Positions 7,792-64,000 of a DNA stretch of 64,000 nt are shown here, in pieces. Below the pieces are notes generated by a model. That model saw only the letters and a program-made list of their open reading frames with translations, was not told the origin of the DNA and made no database searches. A program made the position numbers and the translations under genes. Positions within the stretch are counted from its first letter, which is position 1. Each line of letters begins with the position of its first letter. Source of the DNA: Acetohalobium arabaticum DSM 5501 (lineage in GTDB: Bacteria > Bacillota > Halanaerobiia > Halobacteroidales > Acetohalobiaceae); NCBI RefSeq assembly GCF_000144695.1, contig NC_014378.1, positions 2,070,043 to 2,134,042 of the forward strand, written 5' to 3'.

Positions 7792-7904
7792 GTGAACTAC
7801 TCGGCATTGAAATACCGAGCTTCATGGTCGCCTGCTTTTATGGGAGTTACCCGTAACATCAAGCAAGTTACCCATTCGACGTGTCCAACGCCACTACTCC
7901 TATC
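7792..7904 (-). ncRNA. TnpB guide-RNA scaffold / IS right end (copy 1)
   Basis: A 113-bp module after the tnpB stop, conserved at four loci in the window. It ends in a hairpin (CTCGGTA / TGCCGAG) and TAGTTCAC. In IS200/IS605 elements this position encodes the omegaRNA (reRNA), whose guide is the flanking DNA. The flank here begins TTTTGCCTAAATTTATTATG. RNA function is inferred from position and conservation. Confidence 0.65.
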
Positions 7905-7931
7905 CAGTTAATACTGGACTTGGAGTTACTT

Positions 7932-9232
7932 TTAAGCTGCAAATTGATGATCATTCCAGCTATATTTAACTGGATTTGATAAACCTTTAACCTGCAAAGT
8001 AATATCTTTTCCTTTACGTCGCTGCTGTAAGTATTTGCGTAAGATATTAAATGAACCTACACTATCGGCATTAAAGGCTTGATTATTATTTTTGTCTACA
8101 TATAAGCCGCGTTTAATACGATTAGACTTATCACCATATTTCTTAGTTACTTTTTTACTGTAAGGGCTACATTGGCTAGTATATTTTTCACTCTTCTTGA
8201 TTAAAGTAATCCCCTGTAAATTAAGTTTATACTCCAATTGATGATAAATAATATCAAAAGGTAGTTTATGGAGTTTTTGGTTGTTCTGTTTGCCTAAGTT
8301 AGCATCATCACGAATATTTTTTATATCACCAACTATTACTCTAGAAATATTATTTTCAATACAGTAATTAACTACTTTTTTAGTTGCACTATGAATCAAG
8401 TGAAATAATTGTTTTCGTCGCTTTTTATATAGATTTTGGATACGTTTAGAAGTCTTTTTGCCCTGACCATTCAAAATAGATTGATAATGTTTAATCTGTT
8501 TGTCGAAGTAACGATTAATAGCTAAATATTGTCCACCGTCAATAATAAAGCTTTCCTGATTTTGATTACTGTAACAAGTCATTAGATTATTAATGCCTAG
8601 ATCAATACTTAAATAATTACCGTTATCTTCTTTAATAGTAGGAGTATCTACTTTATAAGTTAAGATTACCTTATAAGTATCATCGCTTAAAGGTTTAAAC
8701 TCAATTCTAGTAGTTGAGTTAAGGACATCTCTATTACTGGATAACAGCTCATTAGGCACTCTTATCCATAAGAATTTGTTGGTAATAGAGTATTCCTCTT
8801 TTAGATACTTTTTTAACTGTTTAGGAATAGATAATCTTAACTTACCATCAATAATTTTAAAACCATTATTGAGATAACGGAAGTTAAATTTACTGTCTTT
8901 AGGTTTATAATTAGGTGGATTAGGTTCACCAGTATATTTATCAGGATTATTTTGATAATCTTTTTTACTTTGATAAAAACTATCCCAGTTATCAGCTAAA
9001 ATTTTAAGTGTTTCCTGTGCTGTTTGAGAAGGTAAATTTTTATACCAAAAATTTTCTTTTAATTGCTTTTTTGTTTATACCAATCAGGATACTCTTTATC
9101 ACTATCTTTAGACCAGTTTTTACGTTGATAATTGCCGATATTATATAACCTAGCACTAGCATAAGCTAAACAACCTAATACAATTTGTTGGATTTGATTA
9201 GGTTTATGAATAAAATATTTAGCTAGCTTCAA
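7932..9232 (-). pseudogene. tnpB: TnpB RNA-guided nuclease, frameshifted
   Basis: Same 433-codon gene as the intact copy at 29862-31163, with TTG start at 9232 behind AAGGAGGTG. A poly-T run near 9065-9071 has six T instead of seven, shifting the frame after about 55 codons, so no full protein can be made. The downstream part is open again to the stop at 7932. It keeps the RuvC region (DLGINNL, NADSVGSFNI). A GTG inside (8759) could start a 275 aa fragment, but I see no ribosome site for it. Confidence 0.88.
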
Positions 9233-9307
9233 TTAGCTCACCTCCTTATGATAGCCAACATTATAAACACATGTTCTAGCATGAATTAGATTATTTTGGT
9301 TACTCAA
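9233..9307 (-). pseudogene. tnpA: TnpA (Y1 transposase) 5' remnant
   Basis: The first 20 codons of the tnpA seen intact at 31199-31609 (SNQNNLIHART...NVGYH) run straight into the tnpB ribosome site, giving a 24-codon stub. The HUH histidines and catalytic tyrosine are gone. This is an internal deletion of about 0.4 kb. Confidence 0.85.
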
Positions 9308-9565
9308 TTGTTATCACCTTTTATATATAGTATATCATATAATGCCTTGGATAGCAATAATATCAAGGCTTAATACAATTACATATAGTTAATATTTAAA
9401 CAAAAATAACCTATTCTTTGATATTGAATCAAAGAATAGGTAGTAAATTCATCACCCATATAAATAAGGGTGGGTTCTTTACTTTTTGTCCTAAATCCGC
9501 ATAGTTAAGTCATAAATTAAATGCAGCTCAAATAATTATTTGTTAGAAGTTATGAGGTGATGAAG

Positions 9566-12360: not shown

Positions 12361-12765
12361 CTATTGAAAATCTTGATTTACAATATATTCTTTAATAGTT
12401 TCAATATTTGCATTACCCACTGTATCTATAAAATATCCTTTACTCCATAAAGAACCACAACGAGCATAAAACTTCTTTAACTTAGGGTGTTTATCAAAAA
12501 GCTTAATTGCTGATATGCTTTTTATGGTTCTAACTATATCGGTAGGTGCTACTGTTGGTTTAGTAGATACAAAAATATGAACATGGTCAGGCATTAATTC
12601 CATAGTTTCAATAATAAACTCTTTATCCTGGGCAACTTGATGTAATACTTCTTTTAACCTAGTAGCTACTTTACCTGTTAATACTTTTTGGCGATATTTA
12701 ACTGTAAATACAATATGATAGCCAACATTATAAACACATGTTCTAGCATGAATTAGATTATTCAT
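12361..12765 (-). CDS. tnpA: IS200/IS605 transposase TnpA
   Basis: Single-strand DNA transposase of the HUH/Y1 class, 134 aa. The HUH motif is DHVHIFV and the C-terminal tyrosine helix is IKEYIVNQ. It is nearly identical to the 31199-31609 copy for the first 65 residues, then diverges, suggesting recombination. A perfect 16-bp tandem duplication at the 5' end breaks the original TTG-started frame but supplies the ATG used here. The partner tnpB is a stub, and the left-end hairpin is cut to one arm near 12903, so the element is probably immobile by itself. Confidence 0.85.
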   Translation of the reverse strand: MNNLIHARTCVYNVGYHIVFTVKYRQKVLTGKVATRLKEVLHQVAQDKEFIIETMELMPDHVHIFVSTKPTVAPTDIVRTIKSISAIKLFDKHPKLKKFYARCGSLWSKGYFIDTVGNANIETIKEYIVNQDFQ

Positions 12766-16180: not shown

Positions 16181-16256
16181 TCGTTTAGGAAATAATCCTT
16201 ATATCTCCCTTTTTCAAATGGGAGATATAAGGATTAGCAAATATTAATTTAAACAA

Positions 16257-16285
16257 TTGATATTTGCTCCATAATTTATTATAAT
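16257..16285 (+). promoter_or_regulatory. Promoter inside element A
   Basis: TTGATA, 17 bases, TATAAT; identical in element B. It points toward the guide-RNA scaffold, with transcription start expected near 16292. Confidence 0.78.
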
Positions 16286-16291
16286 ATAGAT

Positions 16292-16575
16292 GTAAATCAC
16301 AAGTGAATATTGGAGGTTGCAGTAGCTAAACCTCTACTGTGTAAAATATTCAGGGTGCTCGTTGTAGATAGAAGACACTAAATCTTCTAGTAAGCACTTA
16401 TAGAGATGCTTACACTTCTATCTTGAGCAATAAAAGTATCTCTGAGTCTAGCACCTATGCTAGATAGGAGTAGTGGCGTTGGACACGCCGATTGGGTAAC
16501 TTGCTTGATATTACGGGTAATTCCCATAAAAGCAAGCGACCATGAAGCTCGGTAATTCATTGCCGAGTAGTTCAC
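16292..16575 (+). ncRNA. Putative stand-alone omegaRNA (locus A)
   Basis: Predicted about 285-nt RNA from the internal promoter. The 5' part folds into nested stems (GAATATT/AATATTC enclosing CAGTAG/CTACTG; AGATAGAAG/CTTCTATCT enclosing GTAAGCA/TGCTTAC). The 3' part is the 113-nt TnpB scaffold. Transcription through the end would append flanking DNA (TCAGCCAGTGACTTATATAA) as guide. No ORF is credible inside. Function is inferred. Confidence 0.6.
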
Positions 16576-16760
16576 TCAGCCAGTGACTTATATAAAGCAA
16601 CAGTTAATGCAGACTGATGGCCATCCAACATCTGAGCCATTTCTGGACTAATTTCATTCGGTAGCCTAACATCTGTTCCTTTTTTCGTTATAATTCTAGA
16701 CTGTTCTCCTAAAGTCATTTGCGAATTAAACTTGGATGTCTGGGATTCTTTATTCTTCAT
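16572..16760 (-). pseudogene. Dps-like protein, truncated by element A
   Basis: A 62 aa frame paralogous to the N-terminal part of the next gene (…EMAQMLDGHQSALTVALYK against EMAQMLDDHQSALTVALHQ). It ends where element A begins: the stop codon is supplied by the element. The ferroxidase residues are absent. A ribosome site and ATG are intact, so a short peptide may still be made. Confidence 0.75.
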
Positions 16761-16861: not shown

Positions 16862-17605
16862 TTACTGTAATTTATTCTCTGATGTTTCTGTCGATCGATT
16901 AATTAAATCATGTTCTTTATCTAATAAATGATTCATTCCCCGAACCAGCGTATCATCCTCTAATACACTATAGATATGATAGCCAAAGTCTTCACGATCT
17001 AGAAGGATCTCCTCTAAAACCTCAACAGTACCATAATCTTCTATTTCATGAGCCCGTTTTATTGTTTTCCGCATCATTTCTTGCAGCTTTAACTCATGTT
17101 CTAAATCATTACGCAGAAAATCTCGCATTGTATAACGTCCTTCTACCTCATGTTTTAGATAAGAAAGTTCATGCTGCGTAGTAGGATGAGCAGTTGGAAC
17201 ACATCCTAATCGAGCTACCCTTTCTCCTATCATATCAATATGATCTACAGTTTTATCACGATGTTCTTCAAGCATATGGTGTAAGCTGAAAAATGACTCT
17301 GCTCCTTCAGTCAACCAATGATGCTTATTATATTGGTGTAAAGCAACTGTCAGTGCAGACTGATGATCATCTAGCATCTGAGCCATTTCTAGTCTAACCT
17401 CATCCGACAGTCCGATACCTGCTCCTTCTTTCTTTATAGTTCTAGGCTGTTGTCTTAAAATCATTGAATGATCCGTTGTATGACCAGGCATTTGAGAATT
17501 GAATCCTGATTTATCTAAATTAAAACTTCCTTCAAAATTACTCATATTAGTTGAAATCTCTTCTATAGATTCCTGATTTGATGTTTGATATTCTCCTTCT
17601 GCCAT
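16862..17605 (-). CDS. dps: Dps-family ferritin-like protein with long N-terminal extension
   Basis: DNA-protecting, iron-storing dodecamer protein. The Dps core spans about residues 85-235, with the ferroxidase-type pattern HHWLTEG...LHHMLEEHRDKTVDHIDMIGERV. The first 80 residues are an extra acidic, Ser/Gln-rich segment absent from typical Dps (about 150-180 aa), giving 247 aa. It protects DNA by oxidising ferrous iron with peroxide. It is monocistronic, next to a truncated paralogue, indicating a past tandem duplication. Confidence 0.88.
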   Translation of the reverse strand: MAEGEYQTSNQESIEEISTNMSNFEGSFNLDKSGFNSQMPGHTTDHSMILRQQPRTIKKEGAGIGLSDEVRLEMAQMLDDHQSALTVALHQYNKHHWLTEGAESFFSLHHMLEEHRDKTVDHIDMIGERVARLGCVPTAHPTTQHELSYLKHEVEGRYTMRDFLRNDLEHELKLQEMMRKTIKRAHEIEDYGTVEVLEEILLDREDFGYHIYSVLEDDTLVRGMNHLLDKEHDLINRSTETSENKLQ

Positions 17606-20629: not shown

Positions 20630-21841
20630 TTAATTTTGTTTCTTCAATATTTCTATTGTTTCAGCTGCATTAACTAAACCTGATCCCTGTTTTGCCGAAT
20701 CAATAGAGTCTAATAAAACAGCTCCTTCTTTTATAGCCTCTTTAATTTTAGCTGGTGTTAGATTATCAAATTTGCCAAGTATTAAAGCAGTAATACCTGT
20801 TACATGAGGAGCAGCCATTGATGTACCGTCAAGTTTATTAAATTGCCCATTCTTCCAAGTAGATTGAACATCAACCCCAGGGGCAAGAACATCTAAATTA
20901 CTACCATAATTACTGAAGTCAGCAAGTTTTTTATCTTCATTTACTGCTCCAACAGCAATCACTTCTGGATAACGAGCTGGAAAATCAACTGTAGTAGCAC
21001 CATCATTACCGGCTGCTGCTACCATTGTAATTCCAGCTTCATAAGTTTTAACAATTGCCTCCTGCAAAGTATCATTACCTTTATCAACTCCAAAACTCAT
21101 ATTCAAAACCTGCAAATCATTATCAATGCTCCACTGTAAGGCTTCAATTAAGGAAGACATTTTAGCAGAACCATCTTTGTCAAATGCCTTAACTGGATAT
21201 AATTTAATAGCAGGAGCTACTCCTACTATTCCTCTTCCATTCTTACGCGCAGCTATTGTTCCAGCAACATGAGTGCCATGTCCATTTTGGTCTTCAGGCT
21301 GTTGGGCAGAATTAATTGGATTATAACCTGAATTAATAGGCGATAGATCAAAGTGATTTAAATCAATTCCAGTATCAATAATGCCAACTTTAGCTTTTAG
21401 CTCAGACCAAGCATCTGAAGCATTAATTTCTTCTATTCCCCAGGGAATAAAATCTCCGGATGATGATTTAATTTCTAAAGTTAAGTCTTCATCTACTCTC
21501 CTTACTCCAGGCATAGATTCAACTTCAGCTAGATGGTCTTCATCTTCTAATTGACAAGCAACGCCATTAATCAAAGGTAATTTCTTTTTCAGCTGTCCCA
21601 TTTCTCTCTGTAATTCTACCTTCTCTTGTAATTCATTTTCATTTAATTGATGATCATGAACTATTATATAATCTGATAAATTCTTTTTCTTAGAGTTATT
21701 TCTTCTGCGGCTAGGATTACTGGCTCGAGAACTATCTTTTTGTCGCCTAGAGTAACTTCCAAAATCAAATCCATTATTCCCAGTTATCTGCTGTAAAATG
21801 AGAATTGTAATTAAAGTTTCTATCGGATCAGCTAAAGACAT
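20630..21841 (-). CDS. Subtilisin-like serine protease, module A
   Basis: Family S8 protease, about 403 aa. The catalytic triad is visible: Asp in IIDTGIDLNH, His in NGHGTHVAGT, Ser in GTSMAAPH. An inhibitor-like prodomain spans about 55-125. There is no classical signal peptide. Instead residues 3-20 are ADPIETLITILILQQIT, a hydrophobic tag shared with the neighbouring micro-proteins (DADPVVILIVILILQQV). An ATG at 21841 or a TTG one codon earlier are both near AAGGAGGG. It is divergent from the micro-protein genes. A paralogue is at 25744-27015. Probably a sporulation protease (context). Confidence 0.92.
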   Translation of the reverse strand: MSLADPIETLITILILQQITGNNGFDFGSYSRRQKDSSRASNPSRRRNNSKKKNLSDYIIVHDHQLNENELQEKVELQREMGQLKKKLPLINGVACQLEDEDHLAEVESMPGVRRVDEDLTLEIKSSSGDFIPWGIEEINASDAWSELKAKVGIIDTGIDLNHFDLSPINSGYNPINSAQQPEDQNGHGTHVAGTIAARKNGRGIVGVAPAIKLYPVKAFDKDGSAKMSSLIEALQWSIDNDLQVLNMSFGVDKGNDTLQEAIVKTYEAGITMVAAAGNDGATTVDFPARYPEVIAVGAVNEDKKLADFSNYGSNLDVLAPGVDVQSTWKNGQFNKLDGTSMAAPHVTGITALILGKFDNLTPAKIKEAIKEGAVLLDSIDSAKQGSGLVNAAETIEILKKQN

Positions 21842-21874
21842 CAATTAACTCCCTCCTTAGAATTAAGTCTAATA

Positions 21875-21904
21875 TATACTATGCTAACTATTACTAAATC
21901 GGGA
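21875..21904 (-). promoter_or_regulatory. Conserved promoter block, subtilase A
   Basis: Minus-strand CATAGTATA preceded at 17 bases by CC-GATTTAG. The block TCCCGATTTAGTAAT...CATANTATA is conserved in front of the second subtilase. It resembles mother-cell sigma-K/E promoters with CC in place of AC. Confidence 0.5.
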
Positions 21905-21933
21905 GTCAATTTAAAATATAATTAAAGTAACTA

Positions 21934-22047
21934 ATGGAAAACCAAAACAACCCTTTTGGTGGTCAAATCGATATTGAACTACTTTTAAGCAGTATACTTC
22001 CATTTCTCTTCTTTTTCTTCTTCAGACGTTTCTTCAGAAGATATTAA
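21934..22047 (+). CDS. Hydrophobic Phe/Arg-ended micro-protein
   Basis: 37 aa beginning MENQNNPFGGQ, then a hydrophobic helix (LLLSSILPFLFFFFF) and a basic end RRFFRRY. This is a plausible single-pass membrane peptide. Its ribosome site is weak, but it is followed by a strong terminator, which supports transcription. There is no equivalent in module B. It is similar in style to small sporulation membrane proteins; no family recognised. Confidence 0.45.
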   Translation: MENQNNPFGGQIDIELLLSSILPFLFFFFFRRFFRRY

Positions 22048-22082
22048 AAAAATATATTTGAAATCCAATTAAACTACTTTTT

Positions 22083-22112
22083 AATCAGAGCTACTTTATT
22101 GTAGCTCTGATT
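22083..22112 (+). terminator. Strong intrinsic terminator
   Basis: 12-bp perfect stem AATCAGAGCTAC / GTAGCTCTGATT, 6-base loop, then TTTTC. It lies after the 37-aa micro-protein frame. Confidence 0.85.
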
Positions 22113-22201
22113 TTTTCAATTAACATATAAGACAGTTCAATCCTTTTGAAGCTGTTATCAAAACATTCCCTAATCTTTTTTTATATGAATAATAGAATTG
22201 C

Positions 22202-22229
22202 ACGATTAAGGTCAAACTTACATACTATA
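22202..22229 (+). promoter_or_regulatory. Sigma-K-type promoter
   Basis: AC, 17 bases, CATACTATA, with GATTA after the AC as in module B. It precedes the 47-aa micro-protein gene. Confidence 0.7.
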
Positions 22230-22274
22230 TTATTGAGTGAAATTAAAAACGCTTATGAGAGAGGAGGAGTAATA

Positions 22275-22418
22275 ATGCAAGAAGAATCCTTCGGATTTGA
22301 ATCTGCTGAATTAGAGCGCTACTTCGGCAGCTTTTTTCAAATACTAATCTGGGTCTTTGCTTTTATAATTATTTTTGATCACTTCGGTGGCGGCTTTGGC
22401 GGATTATTTAATGAATAA
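22275..22418 (+). CDS. Gly/Phe-ended membrane micro-protein
   Basis: 47 aa: acidic N-terminus (MQEESFGFESAELERYF), one hydrophobic helix (FFQILIWVFAFIIIF), then a GGGFGGLFNE tail. The start is ATG 22275 with GAGGAGG upstream; the longer in-frame version has no ribosome site. The tail resembles the 61-aa protein at 27765 (GGGFGGLFGEE). The sigma-K-type promoter and company suggest a sporulation membrane or coat peptide of the YjcZ style. The corresponding gene is deleted in module B. Confidence 0.75.
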   Translation: MQEESFGFESAELERYFGSFFQILIWVFAFIIIFDHFGGGFGGLFNE

Positions 22419-22476
22419 TCAAATTATAGATAAAATAACTGAATCAATTTTTGATCTATTCTAACATATAAGGCTC

Positions 22477-22504
22477 ACAATCCTAACTCCAAAGACATAT
22501 TATA
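22477..22504 (+). promoter_or_regulatory. Sigma-K-type promoter
   Basis: AC, 17 bases, CATATTATA; nearly identical in sequence and spacing to 27243-27270 in module B. Confidence 0.7.
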
Positions 22505-22587
22505 TTATGAAAATTATAAATCAAAACCAAGTTTGAATCTACATTTTAATACTAATACCTTTAAAACAAAGAAAGGAGGTATTCCCA

Positions 22588-22698
22588 ATGCCAGGAGGAT
22601 TTGATTATTTCGACGCTGACCCTGTTGTAATCTTAATCGTCATTCTCATCTTACAACAGGTTGGAAAAGGTGTTTTCAGTCATCACTATGACTATTAA
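22588..22698 (+). CDS. Micro-protein with DP-LI-ILxLQQ hydrophobic motif (A)
   Basis: 36 aa, starting MPGGFDYFDADPVV followed by hydrophobic ILIVILILQQV and a short polar tail. AAAGGAGGT sits 8 bases before the ATG. The paralogue at 27348 is nearly identical. The DP-x3-LI-x-ILILQQ signature recurs at the N-terminus of both subtilases in this region, which points to a shared membrane or assembly site. It is in the YjcZ/sporulation-peptide size class; function unknown. Confidence 0.82.
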   Translation: MPGGFDYFDADPVVILIVILILQQVGKGVFSHHYDY

Positions 22699-22754
22699 AC
22701 AATAACTCGCTAATTCTAAATTGATATTTTCAAAAAAGAAAGGAGGTTAAAAAG

Positions 22755-22874
22755 ATGCCTGGACATGATCATGATTTATGCGGCTGCGGCTGCTATATTG
22801 AATTAATTTTGGTGGTCTTTCTAATTAGCTGCCTCTGCCGTGGAGGAGTATTTGGATTCTTCGATGCAGACTAA
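22755..22874 (+). CDS. Cys-rich hydrophobic micro-protein (A)
   Basis: 39 aa: MPGHDHDLCGCGCYIEL, hydrophobic ILVVFLISCLC, then RGGVFGFFDAD. Five cysteines around one membrane-length helix suggest disulfide cross-linking in the coat or metal binding. AAAGGAGG lies upstream. The paralogue at 27509 keeps all five cysteines. It forms an operon with the previous micro-protein and is followed by a hairpin terminator. Confidence 0.82.
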   Translation: MPGHDHDLCGCGCYIELILVVFLISCLCRGGVFGFFDAD

Positions 22875-22892
22875 ATAATAGATAATTAAGTT

Positions 22893-25743: not shown

Positions 25744-27015
25744 CTAAGTTTGCTTTTTTAGTAATTCTATTGTTTGGGCTGCATCGACTAAGCCTGCTCC
25801 TTGTTTAACTGGAGCAATAGATTGTAGTGGGGTAGCTCCTCTCTTTATAGCTCTTTTAATTCTAGCTGGAGTTAGATTATTAAACTTGCCAAGTATCAAA
25901 GCAGCAATGCCTGTTACATGAGGAGTGGCCATTGAAGTACCATTAAGCTCATTAAATTGTCCATCTTTCCAAGTAGATTGAACATTAACTCCAGGCGCAA
26001 CTATATCTAAGCCAGTACCATAATTACTGAAATCAGCAAGTCTTTTATCTTTATTTACTGCTCCAACAGCAATTACCTCCGGATAACGGGCTGGAAAATT
26101 GACGGCAGCAGTACTATCATTACCTGCAGCTGCTACCATCGTAATTCCAGCTTCATGAACTTTAGCAATTGCTTCCCGTAAAGAATTATTATTTTTATCA
26201 ACTCCAAAGCTCATATTTAGCACCCCTAGATTATTATCAATACTCCATTGTAAAGCCTCAATCAAATCAGACATCTTAGCAGAACCATCTTTGTCAAATG
26301 CCTTAACTGGATATAATTCAATATTAGGAGCTACTCCTACTACACCTTTACCATTCTTTCGGGCAGATATTGTACCAGCAACATGAGTACCATGGCCATT
26401 TGGGTCGTAGGGCCGTTGGTTAGGCTCAACAGTATTATAACCTGAATTGATAGGTGATAGATCAAAATGATTTAAGTCGATACCTGTATCGATAATCCCT
26501 ACCTTTACTTCTAGATCAGACCAGGCATCTAAAGTATTAATTGCTTCTATACCCCAGGGTACCATATCCCCTGATAATGATTGTTCAGATTCTAATTCAA
26601 AATCTAACGATTTAATTTCTAAAGTTAAGTCTTCATCTACTCGCTTTACTCCGCGAATAGATTCAACTTCAGCTATATGGTCTTCGTCTTCTAGTCGACA
26701 GGCTACTCCATTAATTAAGGGTAACTTCTTTCTAACCTGCCCCTGTTCTCTCTGTAATTCTACCTTTTCTTGTAATTCATCTTCATTTAAGAGCTGGTCA
26801 TGAACTATTATATAGTCTCCTGAGTCACCTTTAGAGTCTTTACTAGTCTCCTTCTTCCTCTGATCAGGTTCATTATACTCTCGGCCTGGCTGTTGCTGGG
26901 CTCCATCTTTCCTTTGACCAGAGTAACCTCCAAAATTTAAACCACTAACTTTAATAGTTATCTGCTGTAAAACAAGAATGGTAATCAAAGTCTCTATCGG
27001 ATCAGCTGAATACAT
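25744..27015 (-). CDS. Subtilisin-like serine protease, module B
   Basis: 423 aa paralogue of the protease at 20630, with the triad in IIDTGIDLNH, NGHGTHVAGT and GTSMATPH. It has the same N-terminal hydrophobic tag (ADPIETLITILVLQQIT, residues 4-20), a 20-residue longer linker, and an extra insert before the catalytic domain. AAGGAGGTG lies 9 bases before the ATG. It is divergent from micro-protein genes as in module A, so the whole module was duplicated. Predicted to be intracellular or forespore/coat-associated (no secretion signal). Confidence 0.92.
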   Translation of the reverse strand: MYSADPIETLITILVLQQITIKVSGLNFGGYSGQRKDGAQQQPGREYNEPDQRKKETSKDSKGDSGDYIIVHDQLLNEDELQEKVELQREQGQVRKKLPLINGVACRLEDEDHIAEVESIRGVKRVDEDLTLEIKSLDFELESEQSLSGDMVPWGIEAINTLDAWSDLEVKVGIIDTGIDLNHFDLSPINSGYNTVEPNQRPYDPNGHGTHVAGTISARKNGKGVVGVAPNIELYPVKAFDKDGSAKMSDLIEALQWSIDNNLGVLNMSFGVDKNNNSLREAIAKVHEAGITMVAAAGNDSTAAVNFPARYPEVIAVGAVNKDKRLADFSNYGTGLDIVAPGVNVQSTWKDGQFNELNGTSMATPHVTGIAALILGKFNNLTPARIKRAIKRGATPLQSIAPVKQGAGLVDAAQTIELLKKQT

Positions 27016-27056
27016 CTATTTACACACCTCCTTCCTCCTTAGAATAAAGTCTAGTA

Positions 27057-27086
27057 TATAATATGTTAATCATTACTAAATCGGGA
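27057..27086 (-). promoter_or_regulatory. Conserved promoter block, subtilase B
   Basis: CATATTATA on the minus strand with CC-GATTTAG 17 bases upstream; the same block as before subtilase A. Confidence 0.5.
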
Positions 27087-27167
27087 ATGATTTTGTCGTA
27101 AAATAGATCAAAAGTTATGAATATAACTTAAAATTTGCTTTTTATCTTATATGAAGAACTGTCTTGC

Positions 27168-27195
27168 ACGATTAAAGCAAAACCTCCATATTATA
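27168..27195 (+). promoter_or_regulatory. Sigma-K-type promoter without its gene
   Basis: AC-GATTA..., 17 bases, CATATTATA, equivalent to 22202-22229. The micro-protein gene that follows there is missing here: sequence runs directly into the region after that gene's stop (ATAATCAAATTATAGA). Confidence 0.6.
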
Positions 27196-27242
27196 TAATA
27201 AATAATCAAATTATAGATAAAATAACTGAATAAACTTTCTTC

Positions 27243-27270
27243 ACAATTCTAACTTCAAAAACATATTATA
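27243..27270 (+). promoter_or_regulatory. Sigma-K-type promoter
   Basis: AC, 17 bases, CATATTATA, in front of the module-B micro-protein pair. Confidence 0.7.
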
Positions 27271-27347
27271 TTATGAAAATTATATAAAGAAAATAATTAA
27301 ATCTTTCACTCCAATACTTTCAAACCACAAGAAAGGAGGTATTCCCA

Positions 27348-27452
27348 ATGCCAGGAGGTTTCGATTATTTTGACGCTGACCCTGTTGTAATCTTGATTGT
27401 TATCCTAATCTTACAGCAGGTTGGAAGAGGTGTCTTTGGTTATGACTGTTAA
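27348..27452 (+). CDS. Micro-protein with DP-LI-ILxLQQ motif (B)
   Basis: 34 aa, MPGGFDYFDADPVV then hydrophobic ILIVILILQQV and GRGVFGYDC. It is nearly identical to the 22588 protein over the first 28 residues; only the tail differs and now ends in Cys. The ribosome site AAAGGAGGTATTCCCA is identical. Expected role as for the paralogue: a small sporulation membrane/coat peptide sharing its hydrophobic tag with the subtilases. Confidence 0.82.
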   Translation: MPGGFDYFDADPVVILIVILILQQVGRGVFGYDC

Positions 27453-27508
27453 CCTTACAACTTATTAATCCTAAATTGATATTTTTCAAATGAAAGGAGG
27501 TTAAAAAA

Positions 27509-27628
27509 ATGTCTGGATATGATCGTGATTTCTGTGGCTGCGGTTGCTATGTTGAATTGATTTTGGTGGTCTTTTTAATTAGCTGTCTCTGCCGTGGAGG
27601 AGCATTTGGCATCTTTGATGCAGACTAA
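27509..27628 (+). CDS. Cys-rich hydrophobic micro-protein (B)
   Basis: 39 aa, MSGYDRDFCGCGCYVEL, hydrophobic ILVVFLISCLC, RGGAFGIFDAD. All five cysteines and the DAD end of the 22755 paralogue are kept, showing selection on the protein. AAAGGAGG lies 8 bases upstream. It shares an operon with the preceding micro-protein and ends at a perfect terminator. Confidence 0.82.
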   Translation: MSGYDRDFCGCGCYVELILVVFLISCLCRGGAFGIFDAD

Positions 27629-27641
27629 ATGATTAATTATA

Positions 27642-29721: not shown

Positions 29722-29834
29722 GTGAACTACTCGGCATTGAAATACCGAGCTTCATGGTCGCCTGCTTTTATGGGAGTTACCCGTAATATCAAGCAAGTTA
29801 CCCAATCGGCGTGTCCAACACCAATACTCCTATC
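29722..29834 (-). ncRNA. TnpB guide-RNA scaffold / right end (copy 2)
   Basis: 113-bp module, nearly identical to those at 7792, 16463 and 54969. Read on the minus strand it exits into GACATATAGTAGAGGTGTTT (predicted guide), which is the leader of the GGDEF gene. RNA role inferred from family. Confidence 0.65.
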
Positions 29835-29861
29835 CAGTTAATACTGGACTTGGAGTTACTT

Positions 29862-31163
29862 TTAAGCTGCAAATTGATGATCATTCCAGCTATATTTAAC
29901 TGGATTTGATAAACCTTTAACCTGCAAAGTAATATCTTTTCCTTTACGTCGCTGCTGTAAGTATTTGCGTAAGATATTAAATGAACCTACACTATCGGCA
30001 TTAAAGGCTTGATTATTATTTTTGTCTACATATAAGCCGCGTTTAATACGATTAGACTTATCACCATATTTTTTAGTTACTTTTTTACTGTAAGGGCTGC
30101 ATTGACTGGTATATTTTTCACTCTTCTTGATTAAAGTAATCCCCTGTAAATTAAGTTTATACTCTAGTTGGTGATAGATAATATCAAAAGGTAGTTTATG
30201 GAGTTTTTGATTGTTCTGTTTACCTAGGTCAGCATCATCACGAATATTTTTTATATCACCAACTATTACTCTAGAAATATTATTTTCAATACAGTAATTA
30301 ACTACTTTTTTAGTTGCACTATGAATTAAGTGAAATAATTGTTTTCGTCGCTTTTTATATAGATTTTGGATACGTTTAGAAGTCTTTTTGCCCTGACCAT
30401 TCAAAATAGATTGATAATGTTTGATTTTTTTATCAAAATAACGATTAATAGCTAAATATTGTCCACCGTCAATAATAAAGCTTTCCTGATTTTGATTACT
30501 GTAACAAGTCATTAGATTATTAATGCCTAGATCAATACTTAAATAATTACCGTTATCTTCTTTAATAGTAGGAGTATCTACTTTATAAGTTAAGATTACC
30601 TTATAAGTATCATCGCTTAAAGGTTTAAACTCAATTCTAGTAGTTGAGTTAAGGACATCTCTATTACTGGATAACAGCTCATTAGGCACTCTTATCCATA
30701 AGAATTTGTTGGTAATAGAGTATTCCTCTTTTAGATACTTTTTTAACTGTTTAGGAATAGATAATCTTAACTTACCATCAATAATTTTAAAACCATTATT
30801 GAGATAACGGAAGTTAAATTTACTGTCTTTAGGTTTATAATTAGGTAGATTAGGTTCACCAGTATATTTATCAGGATTATTTTGATAATCTTTTTTACTT
30901 TGATAAAAACTATCCCAGTTATCAGCTAAAATTTTAAGTGTTTCCTGTGCTGTTTGAGAAGGTAAATTTTTATACCAAAAATTTTCTTTTAATTGCTTTT
31001 TTTGTTTATACCAATCAGGATACTCTTTATCACTATCTTTAGACCAATTTTTACGTTGATAATTGCCGATATTATATAACCTAGCACTAGCATAAGCTAA
31101 ACAACCTAATACAATTTGTTGGGTTTGATTAGGTTTATGAATAAAATATTTAGCTAACTTCAA
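29862..31163 (-). CDS. tnpB: TnpB RNA-guided nuclease
   Basis: 433 aa RuvC-type nuclease that in this family uses an omegaRNA to cut DNA at the empty donor site. RuvC aspartates are in SIDLGINNL and NADSVGSFNI. The usual middle glutamate position reads VIVGDIKNI (no Glu), and the usual CxxC zinc ribbon is reduced to a single Cys (SEKYTSQCSPYS). A Glu just before YTS is shared with the second TnpB here and may be a relocated catalytic residue. TTG start behind GGAGGTGAG. It follows tnpA by about 35 bases. Confidence 0.92.
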   Translation of the reverse strand: MKLAKYFIHKPNQTQQIVLGCLAYASARLYNIGNYQRKNWSKDSDKEYPDWYKQKKQLKENFWYKNLPSQTAQETLKILADNWDSFYQSKKDYQNNPDKYTGEPNLPNYKPKDSKFNFRYLNNGFKIIDGKLRLSIPKQLKKYLKEEYSITNKFLWIRVPNELLSSNRDVLNSTTRIEFKPLSDDTYKVILTYKVDTPTIKEDNGNYLSIDLGINNLMTCYSNQNQESFIIDGGQYLAINRYFDKKIKHYQSILNGQGKKTSKRIQNLYKKRRKQLFHLIHSATKKVVNYCIENNISRVIVGDIKNIRDDADLGKQNNQKLHKLPFDIIYHQLEYKLNLQGITLIKKSEKYTSQCSPYSKKVTKKYGDKSNRIKRGLYVDKNNNQAFNADSVGSFNILRKYLQQRRKGKDITLQVKGLSNPVKYSWNDHQFAA

Positions 31164-31198: not shown

Positions 31199-31609
31199 TT
31201 ATTTAGATTTTTGATTTTCAATATATTGTTTAACCGTATCCTTAGAGATATTACCTACAGTTTCTAGATAATAAGATTTATTCCATAAATGTCCTTTATA
31301 TAACTGCTTTCTTAATTTAGGGAATTCTTTTAATAATAATCTACCGCTAATACCTTTACTCATTTTAACAATATAACTAGGTGCTATTTTAGGGTGAGCA
31401 GTTACAAATAAATGTAGATGATCAGGCATTAACTCCATAGTTTCAATAATGAACTCTTTATCCTGGGCAACTTGATGTAATATTTCTTTTAATCTAGTAG
31501 CTACTTTACCTGTTAATATCTTTTTACGATATTTAACTGTAAATACAATATGATAGCCAACATTATAAACACATGTTCTGGCATGAATTAAATTATTTTG
31601 GTTGCTCAA
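31199..31609 (-). CDS. tnpA: IS200/IS605 transposase TnpA
   Basis: 136 aa HUH/Y1 single-strand transposase: HUH in DHLHLFV, catalytic tyrosine in VKQYIENQ. The start is TTG 31609 with GGTGATAAC upstream. It excises and inserts the element as circular single-strand DNA using the terminal hairpins. It is intact and likely functional; it could also act on element A/B right ends, which are the same, though their left-end hairpins differ. Confidence 0.93.
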   Translation of the reverse strand: MSNQNNLIHARTCVYNVGYHIVFTVKYRKKILTGKVATRLKEILHQVAQDKEFIIETMELMPDHLHLFVTAHPKIAPSYIVKMSKGISGRLLLKEFPKLRKQLYKGHLWNKSYYLETVGNISKDTVKQYIENQKSK

Positions 31610-34647: not shown

Positions 34648-35110
34648 TTATTGATATATTGTGTCACTCTCCAATGTTCTCGCATATACCTCTTATTTGT
34701 AATTGCCTAGCATAATAAATATACGCATTCATGATATTACGGGAATAGTCAATATGTATCCGCCGCTTGCCGCTCATTCGGCCTCCTGCCTCATTCGCTC
34801 TCAAAAACTGACTCTCCACCAGTCCATGGTTCCGAGTCAGTTTTAAGAGTCGCTCTGGACACATATTGACTATTTGTAGCACAGAAATTTCATTAATATA
34901 GTTTTAAACGCTTCCTCCGATAATTTTACATAATTATTGTTGATATATTTCAAAAAGCAACTTAAAGCAGCCCCAAATAAAAGAATTATTAGCATATAAA
35001 ATAGAAGTTTTAATTTATAGCTCTAAGTATAATTTATTGCTAATTAATAAGGGCTGATTTTGGCAGCGTTTGAAATATATCAACTCTTAGATGACACAAT
35101 ATATCAATAA
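34648..35110 (+). repeat. Palindrome-rich repeat R1
   Basis: 463-bp intergenic element bounded by 19-bp inverted repeats TTATTGATATATTGTGTCA (34648-34666) and complement (35092-35110). Inside are two further inverted pairs. One is an AGTCAATATGT arm pair around a GACTC/GAGTC hairpin (about 34749-34875). The other has 16-bp perfect arms at 34939-34954 / 35069-35084. No credible ORF. Copies R2 (inverted) and R3 are near the right end of the window. It fills the gap between the helicase and ATPase genes. Confidence 0.85.
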
Positions 35111-45201: not shown

Positions 45202-45221
45202 CATCATCCTTACGCATCCTA

Positions 45222-45401
45222 TAATTAGGCAGGTCTTCTGACTCACAGATCACTGCTTCTATTCAAGCCTTCCCGGTTTAAACCAGTGGCCTAAAGCTGA
45301 ATAGAAACTCCCTGACTACAGCGGTGGGTCCGTATCGTTTATGATTGAATAGATTCAATCACTCGACTTCACTATTCTCCTCAAAGCGAGGCACCTAATT
45401 A
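45222..45401 (-). ncRNA. Cobalamin riboswitch
   Basis: On the minus strand the B12-box variant GTCAGAAGACCTGCCT lies at the 3' end. Upstream are GGCCACTGG, the GGACCCACCGCTGTAG core and the 5' GAGGAGAATAGTGAAGTC segment, all in the order of the adenosylcobalamin aptamer. With the downstream terminator it should stop transcription when B12 is plentiful. Confidence 0.92.
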
Positions 45402-45474
45402 TAAAATGTATTATTTACTTTTGTTGGATTCTAATATAATTTTATCATAAAATTAGCAAAATTTAAATATATTT

Positions 45475-46580: not shown

Positions 46581-46697
46581 CTCTCATCTGTCAGAATAAT
46601 TCTGCAGGATTTAGCACCGCTGTCTGCTTAAAATCACCTTTAAGCAGCTGGTTGCCGGGCTTCATTGGGCCAGTCCCTCCACCCCTCTTGATAAGAG
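46581..46697 (-). ncRNA. SAM-I riboswitch (S-box)
   Basis: The minus strand reads CTCTTATCAAGAGG...GGAGGGACTGGCCC then GAAGCCCGGCAACC and GGTGCTAAATCC, and closes with CAGATGAGAG, the textbook SAM-I order. It controls metQ by premature termination when SAM is high. Confidence 0.96.
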
Positions 46698-54446: not shown

Positions 54447-54762
54447 ATCTGCATCCCCTTTAGATTATTTAATTAATTTATATTCTAATATTCTAATATA
54501 ATTATAGTTGATTTTATTCTTGATGTCAACCGATATCATGAATTAATTTAACAGAGTAATCTGGTCCAATTCTGCTTTCATTAATGATCTTAATCTAAAA
54601 CCGGCTTCCAGCCAGCTTTAGATCATTCATCCTCCACCATCATAACCAACAGAAACTAATTCCCCATCCTCAACAATTACTGGAACTCTTTTAGGAAATA
54701 ATCCTTATATCTCCCATTTGAAAAAGGGAGATATAAGGATTAGCAAATATTAATTTAAATAA

Positions 54763-54791
54763 TTGATATTTGCTCCATAATTTATTATAAT
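54763..54791 (+). promoter_or_regulatory. Promoter inside element B
   Basis: TTGATA, 17 bases, TATAAT, as in element A. Confidence 0.78.
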
Positions 54792-54797
54792 ATAGAT

Positions 54798-55115
54798 GTA
54801 AATCACAAGTGAATATTGGAGGTTGCAGTAGCTAAACCTCTACTGTGTAAAATATTCAGGGTGCTCGTTGTAGATAGAAGACACTAAATCTTCTAGTAAG
54901 CACTTATAGAGATGCTTACACTTCTATCTTGAGCAATAAAAGTATCTCTGAGTCTAGCACCTACGCTAGATAGGAGTAGTGACGCTTTTTGTATAACCAG
55001 TCTTTGACTGGGTAGGCGTTGGACACGCCTATTGGGTAACTTGCTTGATATTACGGGTAATTCCCATAAAAGCAAGCGACCATGAAGCTCGGTAATTCAT
55101 TGCCGAGTAGTTCAC
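54798..55115 (+). ncRNA. Putative stand-alone omegaRNA (locus B)
   Basis: Predicted about 318-nt RNA, same stems as locus A plus the inserted CCAGTC/GACTGG hairpin. Read-through would add CATCATATTTTTCCTTAACC as guide, different from locus A. It is antisense to the split glutaredoxin gene. Confidence 0.58.
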
Positions 55116-55181
55116 CATCATATTTTTCCTTAACCATTTCTCTTGCCTGAGAATCCTCTGAAGTATTAACTATTTCAAATT

Positions 55182-60253: not shown

Positions 60254-60791
60254 ACCAAACTTAACAACAATGTCAACAATAATTTGATAATTATCCTGTA
60301 TAAAGCTTGATCTTAAATTAAATGAACTTGCAACTTTATTGATATATTGTTGCAGTTTAGAGTTGATATCTTGCAAACGCTCCGAAAATCAGCCCTAATT
60401 AATTAGCAATAAATTAACCTTAGAGCTACTGTTTGAATACCCTACTTTATATGTTAGCCATTTTCTCTTGTGGGGCTGCTTTAAAGTCGCTTTTTGCAAG
60501 ATATCAACTAATTGTGCAAAATAATCTGAGGAAGCGTTTAAAACCAGATTAATGAAAATTCTGTGCTATAAATAGTCAACATTTCTCTGGAGCGACTCTT
60601 AAAACTGACTCGAAACCAGGGATGGTGGAGAGTCAGTTTTTGAGAATGAGTGAGACAGGACGTCGAACGAATGGCAAGCGTAAGAGATTTGTTGACTATA
60701 ATCTGCAATATCATGAATGCGCATATTAATTATGCTAGGTAATTACAAATAAGAGGTATATTGAGGTTCCCCCATTAAATTAGACACTATA

Positions 60792-63246: not shown

Positions 63247-63318
63247 ACATCTCTTATTTCATTTTATGCAAAAAAATATTACAATAAAAATGGCCTATTG
63301 GCCACTTAGATTTAACTC

Positions 63319-64000
63319 TATATTGATATATTGTGTCACCTGCAATTTCTTCGCATATACCTCTTATTTGTAATTGCCTAGTATAATCAATATGAGTTCA
63401 TTCATGATATTGCGGGAATAGTCAATATGTATCCGCCGCTTGCCGTTCGTTCGACATCCTGTCTCACTCACTGTCAAAAACTGGCCCTCCATCATAGCCA
63501 GCATAAAAACCAATGCTGACTATGGAATGAATTTATTGAGCAATGAGATAATATTGATGCTCTGATTTAAAGACAAAGAGCTAAAATTAGTTTCTCTACA
63601 GCCTCCATGATTCCAGACTAGTTTTACGACGGACAGGATGTCCTAGCACTGGTACTGCAACAGGACGTTGCGGTTAGTGCCAGTGAGAGTCGCTCTGGAC
63701 ACATATTGACTATTGATAATAAAATATATTGCTGTGATTATCACCAATGAGAGTTATTGAAAGCATATATTGACTATTTATGGTATTACAGAACAGAAAT
63801 TTCATTAGTTTGGGTTTTAACGCTTTCCCTCAGATAATTTTGCACAATTTAGTTGATATCTTGCAAAAAGCGACTTTAAAGCAGTCCCACAAAAGAGAAT
63901 AGTTAACATATAAAGCGGAATCTTTAAATCATAATACTAAGATTTATTTACTGCTAAGTGACTAGGACTGATTTCTGGAGCGTTTGCAAGATATCAACTC
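63319..64000 (+). repeat. Palindrome-rich repeat R3 (runs off the window)
   Basis: Same orientation as R1: outer arm TATTGATATATTGTGTCA at 63321-63338; AGTCAATATGT/ACATATTGACT arms; inner arms GTTGATATCTTGCAAA (about 63853) and TTTGCAAGATATCAAC near 63984-63999. Longer than R1 because of extra inserts (about 63496-63610 and 63627-63685). The right outer arm is beyond the window. No credible gene in 63181-64000. Confidence 0.8.

Follow-up and report, generated by a model that had tools for sequence, protein, structure and literature searches.

The window analyzed here, a 64-kb stretch of the Acetohalobium arabaticum DSM 5501 genome (a single contig of 2,469,596 bp), carries two gene-free copies of a short element, together with tnpB-bearing relatives. 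A sequence-only reading of this DNA had taken these copies for stand-alone genes of TnpB-type guide RNAs. Both copies are real (16181-16478 and 54687-54984 are 97% identical, and 16475-16575 and 55015-55115 are 99% identical), and neither harbors an ORF of at least 90 amino acids, in agreement with their description as gene-free. Their extents required adjustment: copy 1 spans 16189-16575 (387 bp), not 16187-16575 (389 bp), and copy 2 spans 54695-55115 (421 bp), not from 54693, both starting directly after TTAG and ending in TTCAC. The features of the locus are as follows:

16184-16188 (+): target and predicted TAM, TTTAG, left of copy 1, from insertions of both kinds in the same genome
16189-16575 (+): solo element copy 1, with left end, promoter, R1, three-way-junction region, omegaRNA scaffold and right end
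16194-16235 (+): left-end hairpin (AATCCTTATATCTCCC / GGGAGATATAAGGATT), at a position common to the solo copies
16298-16358 (+): R1, a conserved 5' RNA domain of ~61 nt, with stem P1, covarying hairpin S2 and a possible pseudoknot
16356-16430 (+): three-way-junction region, one stem enclosing two hairpins
16432-16575 (+): omegaRNA (reRNA/sotRNA) scaffold and right end, from similarity to tnpB right ends and covariation
16548-16567 (+): right-end hairpin, followed by the terminal GTTCAC, from folding and covariation
16576-16595 (+): predicted guide of copy 1 (the right flank), placed by analogy with the ISDra2 reRNA
54695-55115 (+): solo element copy 2, with an inverted left-hairpin loop and a ~34-nt scaffold insert
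54804-54864 (+): R1 domain of copy 2
55116-55135 (+): predicted guide of copy 2
7792-9490 (-): tnpB-bearing relative, tnpB frameshifted and tnpA mostly deleted
29722-29860 (-): right end/omegaRNA scaffold of the intact tnpA-tnpB element
29862-31163 (-): intact TnpB of 433 aa with OrfB_IS605 and TNB domains, candidate partner in trans
31199-31609 (-): intact TnpA (Y1 transposase) adjoining the intact tnpB, candidate mobilizer

The left-hairpin loop is inverted between the two copies (TTTTTCAAAT at 16194-16235 versus ATTTGAAAAA at 54700-54741), as would result from a flip of the hairpin while single-stranded, in replication or in transposition, and the 5' arm of this hairpin is mismatched in several other copies. 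The right flank of copy 1 (16593-16719) repeats at 79% as 17339-17465, beside a ferritin-like gene (16862-17605), and this repeat is possibly an unoccupied paralogue of the insertion site. Elsewhere, the window contains cobalamin and SAM riboswitches (Rfam; 45211-45413 and 46581-46697, both on the minus strand), a ~2-kb duplication of 80-87% identity (20630-22886 and 25744-27640; families D3, D6, D9, D12 and D15) and a dispersed family of ~100-150-nt repeats, 76-88% alike and in both orientations (34726-34936, 60335-60699 and 63298-64000).

Candidate TnpB and TnpA partners

TnpB at 29862-31163 is intact, as had been claimed, and the nine intact TnpB copies have a median dN/dS of 0.09, indicating purifying selection. 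The usual RuvC-II glutamate of this protein is a glycine, and a conserved alternative glutamate lies six residues before a zinc-finger cysteine (SEKYTSQC), an arrangement known as 'Ealt' (PMC10711439). The protein is without most of its zinc-finger cysteines, so that its cleavage activity is not certain. Intact Y1 transposases number two in the window, the one adjoining this tnpB and a second, IS200-type TnpA at 12361-12765 (-). Continuing from the latter to ~12230, the start of a TnpB-like frame follows, which looks like an unrelated truncated TnpB.

Solo and tnpB-bearing copies share ends and target site

The solo element was thought to exist in two copies, a count that did not hold genome-wide: searching the genome with the 5' part yielded ten copies and a decayed one at 23.2-23.5 kb, while the right end yielded 26 full modules and the same decayed one, the family having 16 tnpB-bearing copies. 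Among the solo copies, one (L019) has a damaged right end and another (L006) a damaged left end, and an extra ~34-nt scaffold hairpin is present in two, copy 2 of the window and one at 1,469,7xx. The decayed copy (L066) has lost its left end, and its right flank resembles an R1 element of scaffold type i (see below), which suggests that one solo element inserted into another. A smaller derivative was found in the complete genome G019 (L176, at ~2294226), in which the left end runs into a portion of the scaffold plus the right end, with neither promoter nor R1.

Solo and tnpB-bearing copies have the same boundaries, TTTAG|GA... on the left and ...GTTCAC on the right, seen in 9 of the 10 solo copies at each end and in most tnpB copies. 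In the 22 insertions with both boundaries recognizable (8 solo, 14 tnpB), which all end in GTTCAC, the left flank invariably terminated in TTAG, with T at -5 in 18. Joining the flanks of one tnpB copy produced an unbroken GerAC domain (profile positions 2-167 of 167, E 5e-40) and joining those of another restored a DUF1232 protein, scarless junctions that fix the ends of this family; the solo copies themselves gave no such junction. Together, the boundaries and the restored genes demonstrate that the family inserts 3' of TTTAG without duplication, like IS200/IS605 elements. By analogy with ISDra2, whose TAM is TTGAT (PMC8612924), TTTAG is predicted to be the TAM of the family.

Both ends of the solo element carry subterminal hairpins, and tnpA and tnpB are absent from its interior and present elsewhere in the genome. 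Its copy number and ends show the element to be mobile, which, with its recurrence at ten sites, rules out a host gene or riboswitch. As the target and the right end are common to solo and tnpB copies, we classify it as a non-autonomous IS200/IS605 derivative of the PATE/MITE type.

The solo elements retain an omegaRNA scaffold

When reverse-complemented, the 3' 116-117 nt of the solo element are 93-94% identical to the right ends of both tnpB elements, 7792 and 29722, which bears out the shared 3' module that had been noted; the homology begins earlier than had been given, at ~16432, just past the tnpB stop. The 3' 144 nt of the solo align with tnpB copies starting at the tnpB stop codon, a stretch longer than the terminal hairpin. 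This scaffold is homologous to a tnpB-element 3' end and runs up to the right end. This part of copy 1 folds better than its shuffles (z -5.2). In an alignment of ten sequences from four genomes, 96.9% of the cells of the scaffold stems were paired, with two-sided changes at 9 pairs, whereas slid controls were 37-48% paired. The Rfam model sot0042, which represents a family of sense-overlapping transcripts of TnpB, matched the scaffold at E=1.3e-8 with 38.9 bits, below its gathering score of 88; the sot families were described from haloarchaea (PMC12558985), and so a match at that score is not a defining feature for bacteria.

In ISDra2 the last ~16 nt of the reRNA derive from the flank (PMC8612924), and each solo copy would likewise take its guide from its right flank, so that each copy is predicted to target the donor site that it leaves empty itself. 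All 22 guides compared (8 solo, 14 tnpB) are distinct, in keeping with the view that each copy has its own, and no TTAG+guide target was found elsewhere in the 64-kb window.

R1, a conserved RNA domain near the predicted 5' end

The 5' part of the element had been described as a multi-stem region. It does fold better than shuffles (z -2.6), but this description had missed a conserved RNA domain within it, R1, and the 5' part with R1 is the most interesting portion of the element. A DNA search of relatives revealed that the first ~65 nt of the predicted transcript recur without the rest. R1 is built of a stem, P1, that encloses a hairpin, S2; in 11 sequences S2 was fully paired with two-sided changes at 7 of 7 pairs. 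Across 22 sequences from the phylum P1 was 98% and S2 97% paired, two-sided changes occurring in 6 of the 7 S2 pairs, demonstrating a conserved RNA structure. A putative pseudoknot, GGRGTT/AANCC, pairs in 88% of cells and is tentative, since its changes are one-sided only.

A covariance model of R1, with E-values that are rough owing to a short calibration, had hits in 10 genera of the class (15 genomes out of 59); among 398 genomes of the phylum, it added another 9. In a pattern scan of 84,980 species, the strict form was limited to Halanaerobiales, where it was found in Natroniella acetigena, Halanaerobium saccharolyticum, another Halanaerobium, Orenia metallireducens and uncultured relatives. 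R1 and the 5' part had no match in Rfam at either gathering or permissive thresholds, which rules out a group I intron (IStron) or another catalogued RNA as the 5' part, and searches of the literature text that was covered retrieved no description of R1-like elements. R1 is an uncatalogued and apparently new RNA domain. Viral or plasmid carriage was likewise rejected, the R1 pattern being absent from IMG/VR and similar DNA from plasmid and phage records.

The consensus promoter that had been pointed out, TTGATA-17-TATAAT, lies at 16257-16285 (+) and scores 11/12, in an AT-rich region where promoter-like sites are common (4 found versus a shuffle mean of 2.9). Of 14 lineages, 8 have an exact TATAAT no more than 100 nt upstream of R1 (against a shuffle mean of 2.75; none of 1000 shuffles reached this count), and 5 have one no more than 40 nt upstream (P 0.003), the -10 boxes being significant jointly only and not singly. 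This enrichment places R1 near the predicted RNA 5' end in several lineages.

R1 is associated with tnpB-less elements and several scaffold types

Searches of related genomes showed that R1 solos recur in the class and phylum. Of the 42 R1 loci, not one carries tnpB in cis, though one includes a remnant of a separate neighboring element; among 57 tnpB loci, R1 turned up only next to one, in a separate solo. In the source genome, R1 is present in every tnpB-less copy of the family and in none of the 16 tnpB copies. In the material searched, R1 is therefore exclusively associated with tnpB-less elements.

R1 is joined to at least five types of omegaRNA scaffold, which are found in tnpB elements as well and often within one genome (G and L denote genomes and loci):

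Type i: GGTTCAC ends; in Natroniella, Halanaerobium and Orenia; tnpB relatives in the source genome and G007 (L181, L178)
Type ii: GCGTCAA ends; tnpA-tnpB in G006 (L197)
Type iii: AAGTTGAC ends; tnpB in G006 (L227, L228)
Type iv: in G035, G047, G002 and G058; tnpB in G035 and G047 (L273, L281, L274)
Type v: the type of the window

Types iv and v share the three-way junction after R1, the same architecture with little sequence identity. The partner TnpBs are of both the canonical and the alternative-glutamate kind, and so R1 is not bound to one TnpB clade. In 28 of 33 R1 elements, the 3' part is matched by a tnpB-element 3' end, and the best match was a tnpB element of the same genome in the source genome, G052, G006, G047, G225 and G265, as it was for some of the elements in G035 and G009. 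With a tnpB set that is incomplete, the remaining 5 of 33 match no tnpB element or almost nothing, and the R1 elements of G019 and several of G009 and G007 have no matching tnpB in their own genome. The G052 solo is Acetohalobium-like up to GGAGTAGT and then continues with the scaffold of G052's own tnpB copies, which has compensating changes (GGGTA/TACCC for GGCGT/ACGCC). The scaffold of the G021 solo, in contrast, is unlike the tnpB copies found in G021, a counter-example to tracking. These data suggest, short of proof, that solo elements track the scaffold of the resident TnpB.

Discussion

The proposal of solo omegaRNA genes, each under a promoter of its own and capable of supplying TnpB in trans, is the best-supported reading, and of its two variants we favor mobile parasites over reprogramming genes, because the solos have both ends of a tnpB insertion sequence, a TTTAG target and ten copies at ten sites. 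We consider it likely that the element is a guide-only mobile member of the IS200/IS605 group, which uses TnpA and TnpB in trans and in which R1 favors a guide RNA independent of tnpB mRNA. To judge by the common ends and the copy number, TnpA would mobilize the solos in trans; for the later steps, we infer the following course from the sequence. RNA polymerase would start at ~16292, and the transcript would run from R1 through the junction region and the scaffold into ~16-20 nt of flank. This scaffold may be bound by the resident TnpB, with the flank serving as guide. Once TnpA has peeled a copy out, TnpB would cut the empty TTTAG+guide site, and repair from the sister copy would restore the element, which would thereby parasitize TnpA for its movement and TnpB for its retention. 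At the weakest step, the most likely role of R1 is to allow both production and persistence of the guide RNA without tnpB mRNA, for instance as a 5'-end stabilizer or processing signal, given its position close to the 5' end and its possible pseudoknot.

Alternatively, the solos might be passive PATEs or MITEs that hold only the ends needed by TnpA, scaffold and promoter being leftovers with no RNA function. Core deletion of IS605-type elements has given rise to PATEs in Haloquadratum (PMC3119063), the scaffold and the right end of the solos overlap, and a smaller derivative, L176, lacks R1. We nonetheless regard this as unlikely: the scaffold is kept well past the ends in at least five lineages, scaffold and R1 both covary, -10 boxes are enriched upstream of R1, and R1 is found in no tnpB element. 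The solos resemble the Haloquadratum PATEs in lacking genes, in their IS605-type near-terminal palindromes and in presumed mobilization in trans, and differ in keeping a complete omegaRNA scaffold, a promoter and a conserved extra RNA domain, and in a 5' part not derived from a tnpB element.

A decoy or regulator, in which the solo RNA, R1 especially, mainly binds and titrates TnpB or regulates tnpA/tnpB mRNA and does not direct cleavage of its own site, seems less likely still. R1 is indeed a separate conserved RNA domain atop the scaffold, and a competing scaffold alone would be expected to divert TnpB; yet at the 3' end an intact scaffold runs into flank, the arrangement of working reRNAs, and nothing tested ties R1 to TnpA or TnpB. 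A domesticated host guide RNA that regulates genes with TnpB, as TldR does, could account for a promoter and guide in each copy, but is very improbable for a multi-copy, mobile element whose guides are whatever flank adjoins the insertion.

The favored guide-only element has counterparts among known systems. Like the ISDra2 reRNA (PMC8612924) and the sotRNA (Rfam RF02656, sot0042), it has a right-end scaffold and a guide from flanking DNA, whereas the ISDra2 RNA overlaps the tnpB 3' end and the solo has its own predicted promoter and no tnpB. The IStrons, which combine a group I intron with IS605, are likewise IS605-related elements with a structured 5' RNA; the solos differ from these in having neither a group I intron match in Rfam nor tnpB in cis. 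OmegaRNAs separated from a nuclease gene, as here, are reportedly found in guide-RNA-bearing PATEs of Geobacillus IS605 and as standalone omegaRNAs with IscB, in work by Meers et al. from 2023 and Altae-Tran et al. from 2021. We know of no report of a common 5' domain across unrelated scaffolds.

It is possible, though here we lean slightly to the doubtful side, that guide-only selfish elements form a phylum-wide class defined by R1, a portable 5' RNA module that frees an omegaRNA from its nuclease gene and has repeatedly been joined to, or passed between, scaffolds of different TnpB families, so that the element tracks the resident TnpB. If these RNAs work, a guided nuclease would be a public good exploited by guide-only elements, which would change nuclease by swapping scaffolds, and both conflict and cooperation around TnpB and the passage from one to many guides per nuclease, as in CRISPR, would be directly testable. 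R1 itself might stabilize or express omegaRNAs alone, which would be of practical use.
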